Below the pieces are notes generated by a model. The model made no database searches, was not told the origin of the DNA, and was given only the letters and a program-made list of their open reading frames with translations. The position numbers and the translations under genes were made by a program. From Paralichthys olivaceus (lineage: Eukaryota; Chordata; Actinopteri; Pleuronectiformes; Paralichthyidae), in contig NC_091111.1 in assembly GCF_024713975.1 (NCBI RefSeq), forward strand, positions 20,170,001 to 20,234,000: a stretch of 64,000 nucleotides of DNA, given 5' to 3'. Positions within the stretch are counted from its first letter, which is position 1. Every line of letters begins with the position of its first letter. This document shows positions 8,191 through 42,000 of this stretch, one piece after another.

Positions 8191-9544
8191 GTGACAGAGA
8201 TAAGCTCTCGTCTCGTCTTTTTATTCAAACACCTTCAGTCTCTGGACAAACAGATCAGCTGAGTTCTTCATCCCTACCAGAGGTGTTTGCTCAGCGTCTG
8301 TCCGCCTGCTCTGTCCCATCAGGATCATTTCCCGACTCGGGCAGCTGCACACTTTGTGTTTGAAAAGCTCTGTTCACCTCAGACTTCGCTGTAACAGCTT
8401 CCACATTCCTCCGGGGCTCAGAGCTGCAGACGTTACCTGCCCGAAAACAAACGCTCCTTTCTCAGAGTGAAGCTGTTTACAGCTGATCTGAGCGTCTGTG
8501 ATCCGTCTTCAGGTCTACAAATGAACGTTGTCCTCGTCCAACAGCTAAATGATGATGTAAAGACACGTGTCCACAGGGAGTTGTGTTAACGCAGAGGTTC
8601 AGTCGGCTGCGTTCAGCTCAGACTAAACATAGAATAACCTTTATTTAAACATTAACGTTGATGCGTTGAGAACTCTGTTGTGTTAGCGTCGTAACTACGG
8701 CAGCTGAGGAGATCATTCCTGTCGCTCTCATGGAGGAAAACTTTGGAGGTAGATGAATTTAATGTTTGATCAAATACGCTGGATGCTCTGTCGTTAGGGT
8801 TTATATACTCGTCACTGCTGATTGGTCAAGAGCCTGTGTGGGAGTGACCTCGATACCACAGCTCCATGATCGCACCTGCACAGACTCTGACTGCAAACTA
8901 CGTCATCACCACAAGATGGCGGCCTTCGCATCCGAGATAATTTGGCTGCTTTTGTGGATCGTGAACATTTTCAGTATTTTCTCATGAAGTGCAGAAGAAG
9001 AACGTTTCCTGAAGTCGTATGAATGTGTGAGATTCAGGTGCAGATTTAAAACGTGTGATAAACGAGTTTTCAGTTTGAGGCTTTAGGCTGTTTACTCGTG
9101 CACGTGTGTTTGTATGTGTGTGTGTGTGTGTGTGTGTTTGTGTGTTTGTATGTATGTGTGTGTGGGTGGGTGTGTGTGTGTGTGCACTGCTGCTCCTTTT
9201 ACCCTCCGAGGTTGTTGTTGTGTTTGTCGCTCGTCTCCTCAGATCGATGGAACCATCTTTAGTTCCTGATGCACAAACTCTCTTGGATTTAACAGATTAT
9301 TTCTCCGATTATTTCGTCCAGATTCAAACCAGACGTCTCATTTTGCTGTAACCTGGTTGCTCCATGTGTGTTAGCGTGTATGTAGCGTGTTGTTCTGCAC
9401 ACGGAGCTGCTGACAGCGGATCTTGTGTTTTGATGGATATTCTCGGGGCCACAGGGGCCCCACAGCAGCATCTGGAGACTGAATGAAGGGACCAACACCG
9501 AGCACTCGTCTCTGCTTTGTGCTGGGACAAAGGACAAGTGTGTG

Positions 9545-9582
<38 letters not shown>

Positions 9583-14158: not shown

Positions 14159-17100
14159 ATGGGAAACACAGACAGTCACAGCAGCTTCGTCTCTGCCGCC
14201 AAACCCTCCTGCTCGCTCAGGTCCTCGTCCAGGAGGGAGGAGGTGCCGTCAGCTCGCAGCTGGAGGAGCAGCCAGGGCGGCTGCAAGAGCCGTGGGAGGA
14301 GCTGTCAGAACCAGAACTCCTCTTGGCGTTATGAACACGGACCCAGAGGAGGCTCCAGACTGAGAGCTGCATCTCTGGAAAGTGGCGGCAGCCCCAAAGT
14401 GCTGCTCAGCAAAGATGGCAGCATGAGGGTGGAGTTCACCAACAGCAAGGTCGTCCCCATGGAGCCGCAGGGGTTAACCGGCCTCCCCACGATCGCCACC
14501 ACAGCTGCCTCCTCAGTTGCTGAATCCCCCCTACGCACCAGTAAGGGCAGCTCGCTCAGCTCTGATGGCTCCTGGTACGACTCGCCGTGGGGGGGCAGTG
14601 CTGAACTGGCAGACAATGTGTTTGTTTGTGGGCAGATGGTGGATAACTCCACCTACTCCTCTACCCGCACAGAAGTGTCCTCCACCGGTGTCTTCAACAC
14701 CTTCTTCTCAGCTCAGGTAGAGGACATCTCACCTGGATTTAACTCCACCCTCCTCTTCCCCGTCGCAGTTACCGATGGGTTCAGCTCCTCCACAGGTTAC
14801 AACACGTGCTCCTCTGGCCGAACGGAGGACAGCGGCATCGGGGACTCGGTGATCCTGCAGCCTGACCTGACAGACTTCAGCCTGGTTTCGTCCCCGGCTG
14901 CATCACTGGACAGCATTTCCAGCAGCCACAACACACTGCCCGCCTTCCCCACGGCCCCAGACCCCCCCCGGACCGCCTCCTCCTCGACGCTGCTGGATGA
15001 CATCATTCAGGAGGAGGACGGTGCAGGTGGGGGGGTGGAGCAGCGTTTCTCCTCCCTCACGCTGCCTTGCCGCAGGGCAGAGTCCATCAGCACCGCCCCT
15101 GCCACCGGGAACAATCGCAAAGATTTCCTGAAAAGTCGAATCAGACGACTGAGCGACTGGACAGGAAGTCTGAACAGGAAGAAGAGACGGATCCAGGTAA
15201 AAACAGCACTTTAAAAACAAAGCATTTTAAAACAACTCTTGTTTTTAAAAGTTTTATAAAAGTCTGTGTTTAAATATGTTAATTAGGTATAAGCTCATAA
15301 AATGTTTTTCTCATTAACAAAAACACCAGAAAAGGAAACTGAAGTCGTTTATCTGTAGTAAAGGTCAAATAAAGTTCAATGAAGTTAATCAAATTCAAAC
15401 ACATTTAAATTGAAATAAAGAATCAAGCAGAATTACTGGTGCTTTTATTCTGAAACATCTTGCTCATCTCAGACAGGAAGTGTTGTAGCTTCCTGTCAAA
15501 GAATGGTCGCTCAACAAGCTTTTAGAAGTTAGCTGTTAGCATTTAGTTATAGAAGTAGCTGTTAATAGCTAGATGTTAGCAGTTAGCGGCTACCAGTTTG
15601 CAGTCAGCTGTTAGCTTTTGGCAGTTAGCATGTAGCCGTTGGAAGTTAGCAGTTAGCGGTTTGCAGTTAACTGACACATCAACAGAAACCAGGGTCAGAA
15701 AATATATTTATTATTAATGATATCGATGTGATTTCTCGTCAGGAGCCCAGTGATGTTTTCATCAACGGGCTGAACTGTGAGCTGGTTGGTCGCAGCGTGG
15801 CGTCGACCTCCGACCTCCTCCGCAGTCACTGTGGCTCCAGAGGCCTGAACCAGAGCAGCGACGCCCAGCGACAGAACATCTATGAGAACTTCATGCAGGA
15901 GCTGGAGACGAGCTGCAGCGATGCAGTCGACCGGGCGGAGCTGTCGGAGGAAGAAGAGGAGCAGGAGGAGGAGATGGATGGAGAGGTGGAGTTGGGAGGA
16001 ATAGAGCAGCTGGACAGCTTGTTCGAGAAGGAGCAGGGTGTGGTGCGACGGGCGGGATGGCTTTTCTTCAAAGCTCTCATCACTGTCAACAAGGACAGGA
16101 AGCTGGAGCTGGTCTCACGCCGCAGGTGGAGGCATTACTGGGTCACACTGAAAGGTACGCCCGCTACCTCCACGACCAAGAACCTGACGACCTGACGAGG
16201 AATGACCTGACGACTAAAGACCTGACGACTAAAGACCTGTCGACGTGACGACCAACGACCTGCCGACCAACGACCTGTCGACTGACGACCAACGACCTGT
16301 AGATGTGATGACTTGATGACTACTGACCTGTCGACTGATGACCTGAAGACCAATGACCCTAACCCTGACGTCTGGTGTTTGAACATGTGGTTCAACAGGA
16401 AGTGACACAGTGTACGAGTCCTGTTCTAAAGTATTTACAACTTGAAGCTGTCACCTTTAACACTTGGTAATAAACATGTCTGTGAATAGATGAAACCAAA
16501 CCCTCTCTCCGCTCAGGTTGCACTCTGCTGCTTCACGAGACGTACGGGAGGAGCGGCGGTGCCGAGCGGGACCTTTCTCCTCGTTACGCTCTGCTGGCCG
16601 ACGACAGCATCGTCCAGGCCGTCCCTGAACATCCCAAGAAGGAACACGTCTTCTGTCTGAGCAACTCGTATGGAGACGTTTACCTGTTCCAGGTGAGGGA
16701 ACCTGTTCTTTATTGATATTTGTCTTTCTTTCCACACTGTTCTGTAGAGATCAGCTCCGTGCTCAAGAATTTACTGAGATCCAAAATCTCCTGATGTAAT
16801 TCACAAGCACCGAGAACTGAACTTGAATCTTGTTTCGTTCTCTTCACCTGTCAATCCTCTGTTTTCTCTTGACTTGTGTGTCCCGGTGCAACTAAGAGGT
16901 TGTCTAGCTTTAAAAGTTGCTGCTGCAAAGAATTGTGGGACGGTCTGATGTAGTTATTCGAACTCAGTCTGAGACCTGTGTAAACGCCTTGCCCACGTTC
17001 TCTTCCTGATTGGTTCTTATCAGTCACATGACTCGACTACCAGCGGTGAAAACAAAGCGTTGCTAACACTTCCTGTCGGTAACAGCTCCACCTCGTTGTG

Positions 17101-20100
17101 GAAACAAAAAAAGATGAATAAAGATGATGTTTTTTCTCGTCCAGGCCACCAACCAGACGGAGCTGGAGAACTGGGTGACCTCCATCCACTCTGCCAGCGC
17201 CTCCCTGCTTGCGAGGCGACAGGGGAAGGAGGACACGCTGCGTCTCCTGCGCTGCCGGAGCCGCTCGCTGCTGCACAAGATCGACATGGACGGAAAGATG
17301 AAGAAGATGGCGGAGCTGCAGCTGTCTGTCATCAAGGAGCAGAAGAACAGGAAGGCCGTGGAGAGCCAGGTCAGTGCCGGCAGGAGCCCGACGTCACCAA
17401 CATCTTAAATCCACAGTCAACCAGAGCGTCTTTCCTCCTTGTGAAGTTACAGCTCAGTCACTTGGAGGTTTCAGCACTTGGAGGCGCTGTTCTGCCAGTA
17501 AATAGCCCGGTTCACCCGACAGCTTGGGGCTAAACACCTTCTGCAAATCGTAAAGAGTCGAATGATTCCAGAGCTTTTGATTTTACAAGTGTTCCTGGAA
17601 CTCAACTGAAACTTATGTCAAAAACTTTGAGTCTGATGATGGTTCAGGCATCGTCATGTAGCTCATTCATACTTCATCAGAGCATCCTGAGGTCCAGGGA
17701 ACGACTCCCGAGTCAGAGGCCTGTCCATACCTGGTTCTAGGCTTCATTCATTTTTTAATTGTCGATCTCTCTGACATAAACATTTCAAGCTACGTACACG
17801 TATCGATGCTTCGCTCCTTGTTTTAGGTTAATCGACCTGAGGCGATGTGTCAGAATCTTTCTGTCTGCAGAAGTAAGAGATAACATGTTAGTTACTGGCA
17901 GATACATGATCAATGATCATATCGGACTTTTCAGATCAAGCAGTGGGAGCAGAACCTGGAAAAACTGAACCTGGATCTGTTCAGACTCAGGTGTTACCTC
18001 TCCAGTCTGCAGGGCGACGAGCTCCCAAACCCAAAGAGCCTCCTCGCAATCGCCAGCCGGCCCTCCAAGAGCATGCTGGGACGCCTTGGAGTTTTCTCTG
18101 TGTCCTCATTCCACGCCCTGGTGAGAAATGTGATTGGTTCTGTGACTATCAGATGAATTCAGGGGAGCTTTAATACAACGTCTCATCTCTCCACCGGACG
18201 AGTAAAGACACAAGTCTGTTTGTGATGCTAGCTCCTCTTCCTCCTCAGGTGTGCAGCAGAGATGAGGTGACGTTACGACGGCGTTGTCAGTCTCTGTCGG
18301 GGGGACACAGCCGGTGGAAGGGGCTGCCGTCCTCTCTGAAGGCTCTGGATGGGCTGAACAGAAGCAGCAGTCTCTCAACGTCCCAGGTAATAGACCACAC
18401 CCCCAGCCTGTGAAGCTCACTCAGAAAATCATCCATTAAAGTACAGCTACATTATAATGACATTAAAATCATTTTAATCATCGCTACGTTAAGTTACAGG
18501 TTCAGTGTGAAGTCAGCGACGTCTTCAGGTGTCATACATGTTCACATGATATGTAGAGACATCTAGTGGATAAGTTACTCATTACAAACCACTGAACCCT
18601 GAGACACGAGGATTCTGGACATGTTGTGTAGTCCGTGTTTGTCCTGTGAGGCGGCAGCAGGAGATTGTTCGGGTCAGACTCGTTCACAACAGGAACATTT
18701 ATCAGGACGCTGCAGGAAAAGTTCCAGAGACACAGACTCAGACTTGTTCTCACATACAGAACCTGCAGAACAGGTCAAGAACATGTCAGGAACATGTGTG
18801 TGTTCAGGTCTGGTTTGATATAAGGCCCCAGGTCCCTTTCTGGAAACGCCCCTGTTGATGAAGATGATGAAGACGCTGTGTGCTCGGTGGTCCTCAGACT
18901 CCAGTCTGACTGCAGCTCCTTCACAAACCTGTAATTTCAGCTCAGTCCATCATTTCGTCTCATTTTGGTTTGGACCCGGGACAGATTTTTTTAGTTTTAA
19001 TTAAATTTAAATGTAGAGTGTGAGGACGTATTTTGAGTTTGGTCCTGAACGTCTCTGACTGTGTTTGAGGTTTCTTCTTCTTCTGCTCCGAGGTTCTTTA
19101 CGCGCTAACGTTCTCATTTCTTCTGTTCGTCTCTGTGTGGCAGAGGGGTGGAGTTCACAGGCTGTGGAAGAATTTAAAAACCCAAATAAAGAAAAACTAT
19201 AGATAATAAATACGTTTCAATATGTTGAAACACAAAACTGTCACATGAATTAAAAATATGCTCTTTATGCTTTTCATGAGAATATGTTAATCAGATCATC
19301 TGTCGCCCTTTAACCTCCGAGGACAACCGTCTGTTGGACGCACAGCTGTTCCAGAGGGGGGGGAGGAGGAGGGGGGTGTTTGAGGATTAAAAGCTTTGAG
19401 AGCCTTTTATTTTCCCAGAATTCCTTTGTCCCTGAGTGTTAATCCACAGAGGCAGAAAATGACCCCCACCTCCTACCGTCACATGACCCCTCCTGCTTTC
19501 TTCTGCTCCTCTTTTAACCTCCTCCCTTCCTTCCTTCCTTCCTTCCTCTCAACATAATTCCTCCTCGCTCCTTCTCTTGCTGCTTCATCTCATTCAACTT
19601 TCATTCATATCTTTTTCTCTCCCTCCTCTTTTCTCTTTCTTTCTTTTCGTCTGAATCTTTGATTTTCACTAATATTCTCCCCCTTTGATCTCTGTGTGTT
19701 TTAATGATCCGACGCTGACGAACGTCCTGTTGCTTAGAAACAGAACCTTTTACTTTTCAGACTCGTCTTGATAAAAAATAGTTTTGACCTGAATGAATGT
19801 GATGTAAAGAACAAAGTGTTTCCTCTGCAGAGACTGGACGGTGAGTACAAACATGTGGGGGTGGTGCCCCCTGCAGGACGTGCTGCAGCTGTACAGGTGT
19901 GTTCACTCAACTTGAACTGATCTCGATTAGTTATAATAATAATGATCATTTAGAGAAATGATTTTATTAAACATGTTGATTAACCAAAATGATCAAATGC
20001 ATTTGATTTCTTTTAAACATAAAGTTTGACTCAAATGTAAATGAATGAATCTGTGATAACGGATGAAGACGACTTGTCTCTGTCTCCAGATGTATGAGGA

Positions 20101-23100: not shown

Positions 23101-23265
23101 CGTTGGGAGGATCTTTTCTTTATTACGCCGACCACTTCAAACTCTACAGCGGCTTCTGTGCCAATCACATCAAAGTGCAGAAGGTCCTGGAACGAGGTGA
23201 ACGACCAATCACAGAGCTTTAACCAACTTTGTTCATCAGACACCAACGTCCAAGTCACTGATGTC

Positions 23266-23316
<51 letters not shown>

Positions 23317-23535
23317 CTCCAGCAAAAACAGACAGAGCCTTCAAACACTTCTTAGACACGAGGAATCCGACCAATCAGCACTCTTCCTGTCTGGAGTCGT
23401 ACCTGATCAAACCTGTTCAAAGAGTCCTGAAGTATCCGCTGCTGCTCCGAGAGCTGGTGACCCTGACCCACCCAGAGAGCCCCGAGCACACACACCTGAC
23501 AGGTACACACACACACACACACACACACCTGACAG

Positions 23536-23585
<50 letters not shown>

Positions 23586-23615
23586 GACAGGTACACACAC
23601 ACACACACCTGACAG

Positions 23616-23649
<34 letters not shown>

Positions 23650-23681
23650 GACAGGTACACACACACACACACACCTGACAG

Positions 23682-23725
<44 letters not shown>

Positions 23726-25993
23726 GACAGGTACACACACACACACACACCTGACTGAAACACCCTGAATCGTGGCATCATAGATGTAATGAGCGCGGTG
23801 GCCTGTAGGGGGCGTGTCTGTCTCAATAACTGTAGTGTGCGGTGTCGTCCAATCAGAGGCTCTGAGGGCGATGGAGAAGGTGGCGAGTCACATTAACGAG
23901 ATGCAGAAGATCTACGAGGATTACGGCTGCGTGTTCGACCAGCTGACAGCCGAGCAGGGCGGAGCCGACACACAGGTGACGTCACATGATCAAACATCTT
24001 TGAGAGGTTTCAGTGTTTGATGGACGAGTTCAGACGAGATCAAAGTCTTCTGTGTCTCAGGTGAGCGACGTGTCGATGGGAGAGTTTCTGATCCACTCTG
24101 CTGTCGTCTGGATGAACCCTCTGCCCTGTGTGGGACGGGTGAGGACAGACCCACAACTCACACTGTTCGGTGAGCGCCACTACAGCACAACACAACACAT
24201 CTACAGCACAACACACTGAACACAACACAACACTACACCACTACAACACAACACATCTACAGCACAACACAACACAACACAACACAACACTACACCACTA
24301 CAACACAACACATCTACAGCACAACACACTGAACACAACACAACACTACACCACTACAACACAACACATCTACAGCACAACACAACACAACACAACACAA
24401 CACACTGTTCGGTGAGCGCCACTACAGCACTACATAACACAACACAACACAACTACAACACAACACAACACAACACACTGAACACAACACAACTACAGCA
24501 CAACACAACTACAACACAACACAACACAACACAACACAACACAACACTACACCACTACAGCACTACACAACACAACACAACACAACACAACACAACACAA
24601 CTACAACACAACACAGCACAACACAACTACAGCACAACACAACACAACACAACTACAACACAACACAGCACAACACAACTACAGCACAACACAACACAAC
24701 ACAATGAACAAACAACACAACACAATGAACAAACAACACAACACAATGAACACACAACACAACACAATGAACACACAACACAACACAACACACTGAACAC
24801 ACAACACAACACACTCTTCCTCTGTTGGACTAAACTTTAGCATCGACACTGAAAAGTCTGAAACAAACCAGGTGTGAAAAGTTGTGCGTCCTCAGATCGA
24901 TTGTGTGTTTTTCTTCGTCAGTGTTCAGACGAGCCGTCGTCCTGGTTTATCGAGACAACAACAAACTGAAGAAGAGGAAGGTGAGTCCGCTGTGTTGTGT
25001 TTAGTGACACCTAGTGGTCAGGTTGTTACAACACCCCTCATTCATAAAGGTCGAGTGAATGGATGAGATGACGTTTGTTTACTTTTCACAGATGAGCTCC
25101 CGCTCAGCTGATCACGACCCCTTCAGGTTCCGCTGGTTAATCCCAGTGTCGGCGGTTCAGGTCAGACCAGCCAACATCACAGGTCAGTGGAACCCTCTGT
25201 GTCCGTCCTCCAGCAGGTGGCGCTGTGCTGCAGCTGACAGACTGTGGTGTGTTCACAGGCTCAGAGAACCCGTGTGTGTGGGAGCTGGTTCACAGCCGGT
25301 CGGAGGTGGAGGGACGACCGGAGACGGTGTTTCAGCTCTGCAGCAGGTAAACACAGAAGATCACAGGCAGACTGATGATGATGATGATGATGATGAAAGT
25401 CACTTCAAAGTGTGTCAGCTGCTCTGAGATCAGATCTGACCTCGTGTTATTTCAGTGGTTTGGAGACGAAGGCGAGCGTCCTGCGAGCCCTGTCCTCCCT
25501 CCTCAGAGACCGGGCGCCGGCCGGCTCGCTGAGGAGGTCCAGGCTGTCGACGGCTGAGAGGAGCAGCTCCTGGAGGAGGAGGCAGCAGAGGAGTCGCGCT
25601 GACGCCCAGAGGACGACTCATCATCGGCAGCCGGAGGAGAGCAGGTTCATCCTGGGAGAAACCTGCTCGGAGCCGTTGCTTCCCAGCCACGCCGCGTCCG
25701 ACTCTGCGGCGAAGAGGACCAGACTGTTCTCGCTGACCAGCGAGCTGGAGGCGCAGCTGCAGAGACTGAACTTCACCGAGGAGGAGGAGGAGGGACGAGC
25801 GACGACTGCGAGCGCAGACCGGAGGCCCGCAGAGAAGAGGCGGAGCTCCAGTGTGCAGCGACGCCCCGGAGCAGACGTGTTGGACCTATTGGAGAGAGAC
25901 TTCAGTGTTCACAGCATGACGTCCATGATCAACGAAGACTGTTTCTACGACTTTCAGACGTCTGCTGCTCCCACGCTACCGGACGAAAGCTAA
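14159..25993 (+). CDS. tiam2: TIAM2 Rac guanine-nucleotide exchange factor
   Basis: Activates Rac1 by GDP release, linking membranes to actin remodelling. CDS exons: 14159-15196, 15743-16154, 16517-16692, 17145-17369, 17935-18120, 18249-18386, 19831-19896, 20090-20162, 20253-20342, 20680-20898, 20992-21053, 21994-22182, 22665-22733, 22805-22930, 23088-23196, 23323-23502, 23857-23975, 24061-24169, 24922-24980, 25092-25182, 25259-25346, 25456-25993; 1453 aa, phases closed. MGN at the start fits N-myristoylation. N-terminal PH about 445-565, coiled coil and extension to about 725, PDZ about 755-845 ([13 protein letters not shown]), DH about 940-1160 ([20 protein letters not shown]), C-terminal PH about 1165-1300, C-terminal tail with [15 protein letters not shown]. 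The Ras-binding domain expected before PDZ was not found; only exon 19831-19896 lies there, and that exon is the least certain. Human TIAM2 is about 1700 aa. Confidence 0.93.
15525..15670 (+). repeat. TTAGC-type short repeat cluster
   Basis: Repeated AGTTAGC / GTTAGC words in tiam2 intron 1, the same word class as at 10988-11045. Confidence 0.7.
16178..16350 (+). repeat. Degenerate 17-bp tandem repeat
   Basis: Units like GACCTGACGACTAAA begin about 20 bp after the donor of tiam2 exon 15743-16154 and continue to about 16350 with variants (GACCAACGACCTG). Confidence 0.8.
16960..17105 (+). repeat. Dispersed repeat copy in tiam2 intron 3
   Basis: About 110 bp (ATTGGTTCTTATCAGTCACA onward) closely match the reverse complement of about 54800-54920 in zdhhc14. 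It ends some 40 bp upstream of tiam2 exon 17145-17369. Confidence 0.75.
18629..18805 (+). repeat. Dispersed repeat family A, copy 1
   Basis: Carries the family words ACTCGTTCACAACAGGAAC and TTCTCACATACAGAACCTG, followed by a short tail of GTCAGGAACAT units. Other copies are at 22397-22447, 33205-33382, 35655-35790 (-), 37093-37170 (-) and 39541-39690. Confidence 0.8.
20473..20488 (+). promoter_or_regulatory. CTCF-like motif in a tiam2 intron
   Basis: CCAGCAGGGGGCAGTC matches the core of the vertebrate CTCF consensus. Short motif; binding is not shown by sequence alone. Confidence 0.35.
22397..22447 (+). repeat. Dispersed repeat family A, short copy
   Basis: Contains GTCCAGAGACATTTGTCCTC and ACAGAACCTGAAGAACACG in tiam2 intron 12. 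Confidence 0.7.
23269..23312 (+). repeat. (GT)22 just upstream of a tiam2 acceptor
   Basis: A perfect GT run in the 126-bp intron 23197-23322. It ends 10 bases before the AG of exon 23323-23502. It is complementary to the (CA)n tracts that follow the same exon. Confidence 0.95.
23503..23757 (+). repeat. (CA)n minisatellite carrying copies of a splice donor
   Basis: The array starts at the authentic donor of tiam2 exon 23323-23502. The border word CACCTGACAGGTACACAC recurs with exact CAG/GTAC junctions whose intronic G lies at 23536, 23591, 23616, 23655, 23682 and 23731. Pure CA runs of varying length separate them. A decayed copy (CCTGACTGAA) closes the array. Confidence 0.95.
24170..24815 (+). 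repeat. CACAA minisatellite in a tiam2 intron
   Basis: ACAAC/CACAA units with CTACAG and ACTGAACA interruptions fill most of intron 24170-24921. A segment containing the upstream exon end and donor (CTGTTCGGTGAGCGCCACTA) is copied at 24405-24424. Confidence 0.95.
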
Positions 25994-29289: not shown

Positions 29290-29711
29290 GTAAGAGGTTC
29301 CCTTCAACTTCACCCACAATTCATTTCTTCTTCTTCAGAGTTTGAATGAATCAGAGGAAATAACTTTGCTCTGCAGTTTGTTTCATGCAGTGAAAACAGC
29401 GGAGTCGAGGGACGCTGCAGCTTTAAAAGGACATAATTGAGTGTCAATGATCACCACATCAGCTGCAGAGTAACTAATGCAGGCAATCATCCAGCGCACA
29501 CATGTTCACGCCCCCCAAAACACAAATCCAAAAACTCAGAGGGAACGGCAGCCTCAGCTGTGCGTCCGTCACGCTCCCACGCTCACTTCAATTCTCATTT
29601 CTCCTCTGGTTGCAGCTCGCTGGAGCCTGTGCTGAGGAATTATCTGCTGTCAGGACCCGTTGGGACGCTGCTGTGCCAACAGGGACTGGAGCGGGACGGT
29701 GGAGCTGAGCC

Positions 29712-30497
29712 ATGCTGTCCGCCGCCATTCAGATTCTGGCGTTTGCCCTGGCGCTCCTGGGCGTCCTTGGCGCCACCGTAGCCACTCTGCTACCCAACTG
29801 GAAGGTGAGCATCAACGCCTGGTCCAGCATCATGACCCCCATCTCGCAGATGCAGGGTCTGTGGATGGACTGCGTCTGGTACAGCTCCGGCGTCTTCAGC
29901 TGCACCATGAAGAACTCGGTGCTGTCGCTGCCGGCGTACCTGCAGACCACACGGGCTGCAATGGTTCTGTCCTGCATGGTGGCGTTGTTTGGACTCTGCC
30001 TCGCCTCCCTGGGGCTCAAATGTACCCGCTGGGGGGGCGACCACCGGGCAAAGGGGCATACAGCCATCGCTGCAGGGGGCTGCTTCATCCTGGCCAGTTT
30101 CCTCTGCCTCGTCCCTGCGTCCTGGTTCACCAACGAAGTCATCACAGTCTTCCTGACCACGGACCTGCCGGACAGCAGCAAATATCAGCCTGGAGGAGCT
30201 CTGTGTGTGACGTTCATCTCCGCTGGTTTCCTCCTCGCTGGGGGGGTCATTTTTTGTTTGTCATGTCCTGGAAAAAGAACGAGACGACCGGACTACACTT
30301 CCTCCGATGGCGGTGACAGACCTGTGCTGTACTATGACGAGCAGCGGAGGCGGGATCAACCAAAAAAAAGACATAACAAAAGTGTCCAGCTGCAGATGGA
30401 CGAGGCGAAGCAGGAGAAACCTGAGCAGGAGCAGAGGCTCCACTCGTCTCCTCCGGAGGACGTCAGGGACAGCTACAGTCTCCAAGAGTATGTTTAG
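29712..30497 (+). CDS. cldn20: Claudin-20, tight-junction protein
   Basis: Four-pass tight-junction protein, 261 aa, coded by one exon. Residues show the claudin signature: W30, G49-L50-W51, C54 and C64 in the first extracellular loop, and R81 at the start of membrane segment 2. Hydrophobic segments lie at about 7-27, 80-101, 117-137 and 158-185. The cytoplasmic tail after about 188 is unusually long and charged (Lys/Glu/Gln-rich) and ends SYSLQEYV, a usual C-terminal Tyr-Val PDZ ligand. The start is the first ATG of the frame. The claudin-20 call rests on the family signature plus position between tiam2 and arid1b, where human CLDN20 lies; another claudin is possible from sequence alone. Confidence 0.85.
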   Translation: MLSAAIQILAFALALLGVLGATVATLLPNWKVSINAWSSIMTPISQMQGLWMDCVWYSSGVFSCTMKNSVLSLPAYLQTTRAAMVLSCMVALFGLCLASLGLKCTRWGGDHRAKGHTAIAAGGCFILASFLCLVPASWFTNEVITVFLTTDLPDSSKYQPGGALCVTFISAGFLLAGGVIFCLSCPGKRTRRPDYTSSDGGDRPVLYYDEQRRRDQPKKRHNKSVQLQMDEAKQEKPEQEQRLHSSPPEDVRDSYSLQEYV

Positions 30498-33204: not shown

Positions 33205-33382
33205 AAACTGACTCAGATAATTGTGTTCTCACATACAGAACCTTCAGAACATGTCTGCAACATGTCTGGAACACGTCTGGAACATGCCAGGAACACGTCA
33301 GGAACATGTCTGGAACACGTCAGGAACATGTCAGGAACACGTCTGGAACACGTCAGGAACACGTCAGGAACATGTCAGGACT
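33205..33382 (+). repeat. Dispersed repeat family A with long 11-bp tail
   Basis: Begins ACTGACTCAGATAA, contains TTCTCACATACAGAACCTTC, then about a dozen units of the GGAACACGTCA / GGAACATGTCT type. Confidence 0.85.
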
Positions 33383-39000: not shown

Positions 39001-42000
39001 AGACTGGGGGGGCAGCGCTGCAGCTGATTGGCTGAGCTGTTGGCAAGGGGAGGAGGGAGGGAGGGCGGATGTGTTGCTGCACTCTGATTGGCTGGTACCA
39101 AGCCCAGGGGCTGATGGGAGATTTCAGTGCAGCGTTTCTCCTCTTTTTCTTTCCTCCTGTCCTCCTCCACTCATCCTCTGTTTCCTCTCCTTCCTGTTTC
39201 CTCATTCCTTTCTTCCTCGCTCCTCCTCAGTTTCCTCTGCTCACTTCTTCTTCTTGTCTCCTCTTTGTCCTTACTCCTCATCCTCATGTCGCCTCCTCTC
39301 TCTCATGTTTTCCCTTCGTTCGCCTCCATGAGTTAATTATCTCTGAATCCAGACACCAGTTTTTCTGTCTGAGTGAGACCTCGTCTTATGTGGTTCTTGA
39401 CATTGGAGAGGGAATCGAACCGTATAATGACTTTGACCACATTACAGCTGAACACCTGAGAAGAGAGGATGTGTTCAGGGACCACGTTTATCAGGTGGAA
39501 ATGTTGTCGGTCCACATTTTAATTGTTTTCACCCGAGTGTGAAAATGTCCAGAGACACTGACTCAGACATTTGTTCTCACATACAGAACCTCCAGAACAC
39601 GTCAGGAACATGTCAGGAACACATCAGGAACATGTCAGGAACATGTCAGGAACACGTCAGGAACACGTCAGGAACACGTCAGGAACACAAATCATTTAAA
39701 TAATGATTTAATTTAAAACTTGAAACATCAATAAAAACTAATATGTGGAAACTGTTCCTGAGTAAAGTCGCTGCATCAGGTGTTTAACCCGTCGTCGTCT
39801 GTGTTTCAGGATCTGTCCGGCTCCATCGACGATTTGCCGACCGGCACAGAGGCAGCGGTGAGTTCAGGGGCGTCAGGATCCGGAAACACTCAGGGTGACC
39901 AGGGGACTCCGGCCCGTTCTCCTTTCTCTCCACACGCATCGCCCCGACACCCACCGTCACTCCGCACCGGGCCCTCGCCATCCCCTTCACCATCCCCCGC
40001 TGGGTCTAGCAGCCAATCGCGCTCCGGGCCTCTGTCTCCAGCCACCAGTGGACCAGGTAGGATGGTGATGATGATTTGACTGAGAAATAAGTCGGGAAGG
40101 TTTTGTGTTATTTTGCTTTTATTCTGAAGTCTTTATTATTTATTGTTATATTTTTTAAACAATAAAGAAAAAGTTAAAAAATCTAAATTGATCAAATAGT
40201 TTTTACAGAATCAGAATCTAAAAACAAGAATTTAAACAAGTGAATGAATAAATCTTAGTACAAATATCAAACACCTCATGGTTCTGTGGAGTTTTTACTT
40301 TTTATTTAAAGATTTCCTTTATTCTAATTTAAATGATTTCATTTAGGAGTTTCAAGTGATTTCTGAAAGTATACAAACCTCAAACTGTTCAGAAGCTACA
40401 ACAGAAAACATTCAGGACATTTTTAAGAGAGTAATTCGATCCAGAAGTTACAGAAGAACCACGTCGGACCGACACAGCTCAGCTGGATGCAGTGACATTA
40501 ACACATGGTCTGTCTGTCAGGAGCTCAGCTGACCCCCCAGATCCCCGGGACTGATGTCGGTTCTCATTCCTCCCAGTCGCCCATGACGCAGGACAGAGGT
40601 AACGTGTGCGTGTGTGTGTGTCAGGGCTAGAATTAGCTTTAGGTTGGAGTTAGTCTACTAAGTGTGCTAATGAGTGTCCTCGCTAAGACAGAAGTACAAA
40701 CGTCTCTGTCTCTCCTCAGACAAACAGTCTCATTGATCTCGTTATTATTATTTCGATGCTGTTGGATCATGAACGCAGATCGTTCCGGTCACTCCTGATA
40801 TTTAGAGTCAGACTAAACTGAGAAGTCTGAAGGTCTGAAACAAACAAGGTGTGAAAGACGTCCCACCTCTCTGTGTTTTGTTCAGGTTTTTCTACGTCCC
40901 TGCAGCGGAGCACCCCGGGGCCTCAGTTTGGCCCCCAGCAGTCAGCTCCACCTATCTCCCCTCACCCAGCACTGGGGGGGCCTATGCACCACGACTCGTA
41001 CCAGCAGGGCAGCTCATACGTCCAGTATGGCCCCCCAGGTACAATCTGCTCAAACTTAGATAACAGTGAGGTAGTGAACTTCTTGTCTGATGTCTCGTGT
41101 CATGCCTCATTCCTCAGGTAACTACCCCCACCCCCCCAACTATGGCGGAGCCCCCAGCGCCAACTACAGCGGCCCGGGCTTAGCTAACAGCCTGGGGTTG
41201 AATGCCAGCAGTCCGGTGCACGGTCAGGGCCCCTCTACGCCAGCAGGTCGTGGCCCTGGACCCAGCGCTGGGGGGCGACCTTACCCTGCTGGAGGGAGCT
41301 CCATGGCCCCCACCTCACCGGGTATGCCACAGCCTGCCGGTCAGGGATTGAGGCCTCCGGTGGCCAACACCAACCGCAAAACTCCAGAAGTCGGCAGGTC
41401 CGGTGCCAACTCCTCGTCCACCACTCAGAGCAGGTGAGTCCTGACAGAGACCCCGCCCATCTCCTGAAACATGGGGAGAATCAAACAGCTGCAGGAAACT
41501 GATGTTTAAAGACACAGCGTGGAGTTTCCACAGCTGAGGTTCACAAAACATGTTGAACACTTTCCTTCCTCGTCAAACAGAGAATCAGAAAAGTGTCGTC
41601 AGTTGATGAGTGAAGTTTTCTGCAGCTGCTCAATATTAAAGTTTTTGTCGCCTCCGTCCTTCCAGGCCTCCGTTCACCCGTTCACCCGTCTGCCACAACA
41701 ACTCTTGGCCGGGGAGTCGACCCATCCCTCCTACTTCTCACCCCTCCCAGCATCCTCACCCCCACCACCACCACCACCATCCTCCTCCTCCTCCTCCTCC
41801 TCCTCACCCTTCTCACGACTCCCTGCAGGGCACCAATGCTGTGCAGACCCCCTCTGAGAATTATGGGTAGGTTTGGTACCAGAGTCTGCCAGATGCAGAA
41901 ACGCGGCTTTGTCGTAAATTGAACTTGAAACAGCTGTGGTGCGACTTCTCAAAAATGAGAAGCTACAGCTGATGTCAGATTGATTTGTGATGAAGCCGTC

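Follow-up and report, generated by a model that had tools for sequence, protein, structure and literature searches.

The nearest described relative of the arrangement reported here is found in intron 18 of human ABCA7, which carries a variable number tandem repeat (VNTR) of a 25-bp unit that includes the donor of exon 18 and ranges in copy number from about 12 to about 427. In the account given of it, the second donor offered by the repeat is used as a cryptic site at 2 +/- 1%, is out of frame and is not affected by VNTR size, and expansion of the VNTR raises the skipping of exon 19 (PMC5954066). A different use of repeats next to splice sites is described for fish introns, where complementary AC/GT arrays replace U2AF2 (Lin et al. 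2016, as related in PMC12636285, PMC9198270 and PMC7404189). Here we describe a locus of Paralichthys olivaceus, in a stretch of 64,000 nucleotides (contig NC_091111.1 of assembly GCF_024713975.1, positions 20,170,001 to 20,234,000 of the forward strand; hereafter the window, with positions counted from its first letter), at which the donor of a DH-domain exon of a tiam2-like gene is present in seven copies within a CA array, with a complementary GT array just upstream of the same exon. A literature search for donors multiplied by tandem repeats matched only ABCA7 and the D4Z4 repeat, which is no proof of their absence elsewhere, and one for GT and AC repeats in zebrafish gave no match.

The gene model has 22 exons, their boundaries set by eye, with 1453 open codons and GT-AG termini at 21/21 introns. 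The gene encodes a Tiam-type Rac exchange factor, in which a RhoGEF domain (PF00621, 155.3 bits) is followed by a Tiam-type PH domain (PH_Tiam1, PF23014, 147.6 bits). A first-pass annotation of the window had given the DH-domain exon as 23323-23502, 180 nt long and in the same phase at both ends; all of this is correct, the phase being 1 at each end. Since the exon pair joined at 23502/23857 gives an ungapped alignment with the Tiam1 chain 1foe_A (E 2.2e-40), the GT at 23503 is the conserved donor of this exon.

The tract that follows this donor had been described as (CA)n runs. CA runs do begin at the donor, but the longest measures 44 bases, not the 'about 42' given for it, and the tract is interrupted by six extra copies of the exon end together with its donor (Table 1). 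It is thus a minisatellite, whose unit consists of a CA run and the 10-base core CTGACAGGTA, the latter made up of the last seven exon bases and the first three intron bases; the exon end and donor held in each unit read CACCTGACAG and, across the junction, GTACACAC. The seven donors share an identical stretch of 30 nt and lie 33, 55, 25, 39, 27 and 49 nt from one another, and the CA runs, counted from 23506, have n = 11, 22, 7, 14, 8, 19 and 8. As the exon itself terminates in CACACACCTGACAG, CA runs stand on either side of the core. We propose that the CA-rich exon end and the intron start jointly seeded the CA minisatellite, and that the non-CA core, the exon-intron junction included, would then have been copied by slippage between the CA runs on either side of it or by their unequal exchange. 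The runs alternate between long and short, (22,7),(14,8),(19,8), and Tandem Repeats Finder (TRF) reports a 66-base period with 2.5 copies at 23554-23713, which together suggest that two-unit blocks were duplicated later. Three of the six units are multiples of three in length, too few to judge whether the CA numbers are under selection for frame. In the form CCTGACAGG (23495-23504 and its copies) the core is nearly self-complementary, and the predicted fold accordingly has neighbouring donor copies paired (1-2, 3-4 and 5-6). Within 140 nt of the end of this intron (23503-23856), the motif YTNAY occurs only at the CTGAC cores at 23724 and 23751.

Table 1. Features of the tiam2 locus, in window coordinates, with the predicted outcome for each donor copy.
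Feature	Coordinates	Strand	Remarks
tiam2 DH-domain exon	23323..23502	+	180 nt, phase 1-1; from gene model and homology
Following tiam2 exon	23857..23975	+	119 nt
(GT)22 array	23269..23312	+	just upstream of the 3' splice site, in intron 23197-23322
CTGAT, putative branch-site-like motif	23258..23262	+	nearest YTNAY upstream of the GT array
Donor copy 1	23503..23504	+	canonical by homology
Donor copy 2	23536..23537	+	predicted +33 nt, in frame, 11 residues added
Donor copy 3	23591..23592	+	predicted +88 nt, frameshift, stop in next exon
Donor copy 4	23616..23617	+	predicted +113 nt, stop inside extension
Donor copy 5	23655..23656	+	predicted +152 nt, stop inside extension
Donor copy 6	23682..23683	+	predicted +179 nt, stop inside extension
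Donor copy 7	23731..23732	+	predicted +228 nt, in frame yet stops inside extension
CA array interrupted by copies 2-7 of CTGACAGGTA	23505..23750	+	
(CA)22 run	23539..23582	+	44 bases, longest CA run; predicted partner of (GU)22
Decayed eighth core (CTGAC, without donor)	23751..23755	+	also branch-site-like
End and donor (GT at 24170) of exon 24061-24169	24159..24188	+	original of the 30-nt duplicate
Exact 30-nt copy, donor GT at 24412	24401..24430	+	within ACAAC array 24182-24813 (632 bases)

As read from the sequence, donor 1 would give the normal protein; copy 2, if chosen in a small fraction of transcripts, would add an in-frame insert of 11 residues to the exchange domain, and copies 3-7 would give early-stop transcripts liable to be degraded. 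With the insert the RhoGEF match is 143.3 bits, against 155.3 bits without it, and the added residues appear as a single 11-residue gap against 1foe_A, in what we take to be the stretch before the last DH helix. The donor of this exon scores 0.77, the second lowest of 20 tiam2 donors scored on a vertebrate matrix (donor 19897 being left out), because its positions +4 to +6 are CAC; all seven copies score alike. We consider leaky donor choice at a low level to be the likeliest effect of the array, and favour it with moderate confidence; the array itself is probably tolerated drift and not a selected switch. Support for the leak comes from ABCA7, since there the next-copy donor is used at 2 +/- 1% (PMC5954066).

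Several considerations weigh against a leak. That any copy past donor 1 is used is something we infer, and exon-side context or proteins on the CA tract may silence identical tandem donors fully. Use of the next donor in ABCA7 is reported as unchanged by VNTR size (PMC5954066), so that the choice of donor may not depend on the number of copies. Errors in assembling the repeat are conceivable, although a plain assembler duplication is unlikely because the CA lengths differ between copies. Proteins binding UG or CA repeats could prevent the pairing of the arrays discussed below, the fold being that of naked RNA. Finally, 5-10% of random window positions have a near-exact copy within 600 nt, and with such copies so common the capture of a donor is by chance unremarkable.

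Leaky choice strictly excludes one rival, namely that donor 1 is always the sole donor and that everything else, from its further copies to the GT tract and its pairing, is neutral clutter of no measurable effect. A second case of a duplicated donor lies nearby, where the end and donor of exon 24061-24169 recur within an ACAAC array (Table 1); use of the copy at 24412 would bring a stop soon after the exon (the frame ends at 24219). When near-exact copies (at least 22 of 24 bases) were sought within 600 nt, they were found for 2/21 donors, 0/21 acceptors, 69/600 intronic positions and 1/600 exonic positions; a tally of exact 24-base copies, from which donor 19897 was omitted and into which 16/21 acceptors were entered, two of them one base off, had given 2/20 donors versus 75/1500 random positions. 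An enrichment of donors in repeats was hence rejected, donors being copied at about the intronic rate (2/21 versus 69/600); a match at this rate, with exons spared, fits drift. That donors overlap local repeats no more than intronic positions do, that tandem repeats are abundant in the window (91 TRF rows, some for one same array) and that the gene is open throughout all speak for clutter, whereas the match of the copies to the homologous donor over 30 nt and the leak described in ABCA7 (PMC5954066) speak against it; we regard it as possible but rather unlikely. A scan of both strands of the window for further donor copies says little, as its score cut and complexity filter dropped plus-strand sites of interest. 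Elsewhere in the gene, in the interval 16155-16358, a GACCTGACGACTAAA-type minisatellite starts about 27 nt past another tiam2 donor (16155), which is not copied.

On the other side of the exon, the perfect (GT)22 ending 10 nt before the acceptor that had been noted on first pass is indeed present. It lies upstream of the AG at 23321 and downstream of the motif match CTGAT at 23258, a putative branch site whose A at 23261 is 61 nt from the end of the intron; the sequence from the array to the acceptor is ATATCTCCAG, with no T-run. An unusually weak acceptor was considered and rejected, since its pyrimidine fraction of 0.55 is ordinary for the gene: of the 16 acceptors for which the fraction was computed, those at 23857 and 25259 have less (0.50) and five others have the same value. 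This layout calls to mind CFTR exon 9, where many UG repeats combined with few Us repress the exon through TDP-43 (PMC12171016). By analogy, a TDP-43 homologue on the single-stranded (UG)22 might repress the tiam2 exon, with pairing to the CA array relieving the repression. That the UG tract comes after the branch-site-like CTGAT and before the AG, followed by no more than ATATCTCCAG, would suit such a mechanism, but the pyrimidine content just mentioned is not unusual and the tract may be sequestered by the CA array; we judge it improbable. As the protein would act on the open UG tract, this model is the opposite of one based on a helix between the arrays.

That (GU)n and (CA)n can pair, as the first-pass annotation proposed, is borne out as thermodynamically favoured. 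In the folds predicted for three nested stretches of the pre-mRNA as naked RNA, which take no account of bound proteins or of the order of transcription, each of the 44 nt of (GU)22 is paired, nearly all of them with (CA)22 at 23539-23582. The bare duplex of 22 + 22 repeats has -88.5 kcal/mol, and in context pairing contributes -82.4 kcal/mol. The acceptor, the exon and donor 1 come to lie together in the loop that the helix closes. The predicted probability of donor 2 being unpaired is 0.02 with the helix versus 0.45 with the GU array held open, and the openness around the acceptor passes from 0.85 to 0.47; donor 1 stays at 0.45 in both states, and donors 3-7, outside the loop, scarcely change. 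A (GU)22-(CA)22 helix formed in vivo would thus enclose the exon with donor 1 and hide donor 2, so that the first effect of pairing would be on donor choice. A UG-tract quadruplex, which needs 12 G, was set aside, since CA-rich flanks interfere according to PMC12636285.

Under random array placement, the probability that the window holds any complementary GT/CA pair at most 250 nt apart is P 0.14-0.20. For some tiam2 exon to have one array starting at most 60 nt before it and the other at most 20 nt after it, the corresponding P is 0.00015-0.0003 (19/22 exons, two with the start one base off, and runs of at least 16 nt), a value that is too small because placement was uniform, while repeats avoid exons and introns are short, and because the criteria were post hoc. 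A second complementary GT/CA pair in the window, at 9116-9137 and 9549-9578, is separated by 412 nt.

From the pairing, the first-pass annotation had drawn the model that the helix loops out the exon, so that in-frame skipping yields a Rac factor dead for exchange, with array length serving as a dial. Skipping would preserve the frame: without the exon, the RhoGEF match is halved from 155.3 to 77.6 bits and ends at profile position 121 of 180. The model further draws on complementary arrays that closely flank the exon and whose pairing is strongly favoured, and on a review by which flanking duplexes loop out exons (PMC7404189). Pairing energy goes from -16.1 kcal/mol at 6 GT repeats to -112.1 at 30, and with all CA runs capped at 4 repeats it is still -42.0 kcal/mol; because the helix stays strong from 6 to 30 GT repeats, tuning by pairing strength is unsupported, and a dial of this kind was rejected, pairing being favoured at every length computed. 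What does respond, in part, is the register of the partner. Among 14 altered alleles, ten had CA run 2 changed and four had a longer run 6. With run 2 at 8-19 repeats the helix is split between runs 2 and 4, with 15 and 27 pairs on them at 8 repeats and 37 and 5 at 19, and it lies mostly on run 4 only when run 2 has 8 repeats; in the four alleles with run 6 lengthened, up to 25, the helix is unmoved. The partial move of the helix to run 4 in alleles with a shortened run 2 favours the skipping model, but pairing is saturated at 6-30 GT repeats as well as with CA runs capped at 4, and a loop holding both the acceptor and donor 1 could equally favour inclusion. Skipping of the exon, like a switch made of paired arrays, is speculation, and we give this model as low a probability as repression from the open UG tract. 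An effect of pairing on skipping is conceivable all the same. The repetition of the donor offers a more direct route to altered splicing than the pairing of the arrays.

The flanking arrays might instead promote back-splicing, giving a 180-nt single-exon circular RNA. Complementary intronic sequences do flank the exon, and a review has such sequences favouring back-splicing (PMC9198270). For a circular RNA, a single exon of 180 nt is presumably short, and this outcome seems the most remote of those considered. Back-splicing, skipping and repression from the UG tract may each coexist with leaky choice.

The two arrays and the donor copies could also be parts of one evolving switch, in which the helix hides copy 2 until it is opened by a protein that binds UG or CA repeats, whereupon the copy 2 insert is made, and mutation of the arrays resets the isoforms. 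We hold this to be very unlikely. Were it true, copy 2 would matter because it alone among the extra donors yields a product that is open and in frame, with a His-Thr-rich insert of 11 residues; mutation of the arrays would alter the set of paired CA runs, with it the set of hidden donors, and also the frame of copy 2 (kept at a CA number of 2 modulo 3), and the isoform set would be both heritable and fast-mutating.

The assignment to tiam2 rather than tiam1 is one that we assume from sequence likeness and from the neighbouring genes. On the 3' side of the gene two frames were recognised by eye in translations, one claudin-like and in a single exon, the other ARID1B-like; the open frame that looks like a claudin spans 262 codons at 29709-30497. 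An 11-base unit, GAACACGTCAG, forms tandem arrays at 33247-33380 and 39595-39688, with scattered traces near 18770 and 22430 seen by eye, and looks as if it belonged to a dispersed element with an internal minisatellite.

Choice among identical donors has otherwise been studied for the most part in designed minigenes. Where a microsatellite has turned the donor of a conserved coding exon into seven, nature has set up an experiment on that choice. If the copies are silent, the locus measures how well exon context guards the right donor; if they are not, a Rac exchange factor has in it a source of isoforms that is hypermutable. The locus would add another vertebrate case to the ABCA7 kind and would show how a CA-rich exon end can seed such an array.

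Among the systems with which the locus may be compared, the fish introns described by Lin et al. 2016 share with it the long complementary CA/UG tracts that adjoin splice sites and are predicted to pair. In the cases described there, a single intron has an array at each end and is bridged by the two, whereas in tiam2 the two are not in one intron, the GT array being at the 3' end of 23197-23322 and the CA array at the 5' end of 23503-23856 (runs of at least 16 nt). The (TG)m(T)n tract of CFTR intron 8 resembles the GT array in that TG repeats closely precede the acceptor of a conserved-domain exon (PMC12171016), but tiam2 has ATATCTCCAG in place of a T-run after the TG and a downstream CA array able to sequester the UG. 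Intronic CA repeats bound by hnRNP L, as in eNOS (cited in PMC3940906), have their counterpart in a CA tract that here directly follows the donor; the likeness is one of sequence, and the tiam2 tract differs in being interrupted by donor copies. With intron gain by tandem duplication at AGGT/AGGC (PMC4974935, PMC3629103) the array has in common that each unit holds an AG/GT that could serve as both acceptor and donor; unlike in that process, the tiam2 copies lengthen an existing intron.

The likeness to ABCA7, as that repeat is described in PMC5954066, goes furthest. In both, the tandem unit contains the real donor of the exon, here as seven identical copies; the next copy can act as a cryptic donor that adds one unit, for tiam2 as a predicted +33 nt; and an in-frame exon lies beside the repeat that can be skipped in ABCA7 and might be in tiam2. 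The differences are that the tiam2 unit is a CA run with a 10-base core, offering seven donors of which the second is in frame; that the effect of length in ABCA7 falls on skipping of the following exon 19, whereas in tiam2 the following exon has 119 nt and its loss would shift the frame; and that tiam2 has a complementary GT array upstream. Known here from its sequence, the tiam2 array would thus best be filed as another donor-bearing repeat of the ABCA7 kind, with ABCA7 as its nearest known counterpart.

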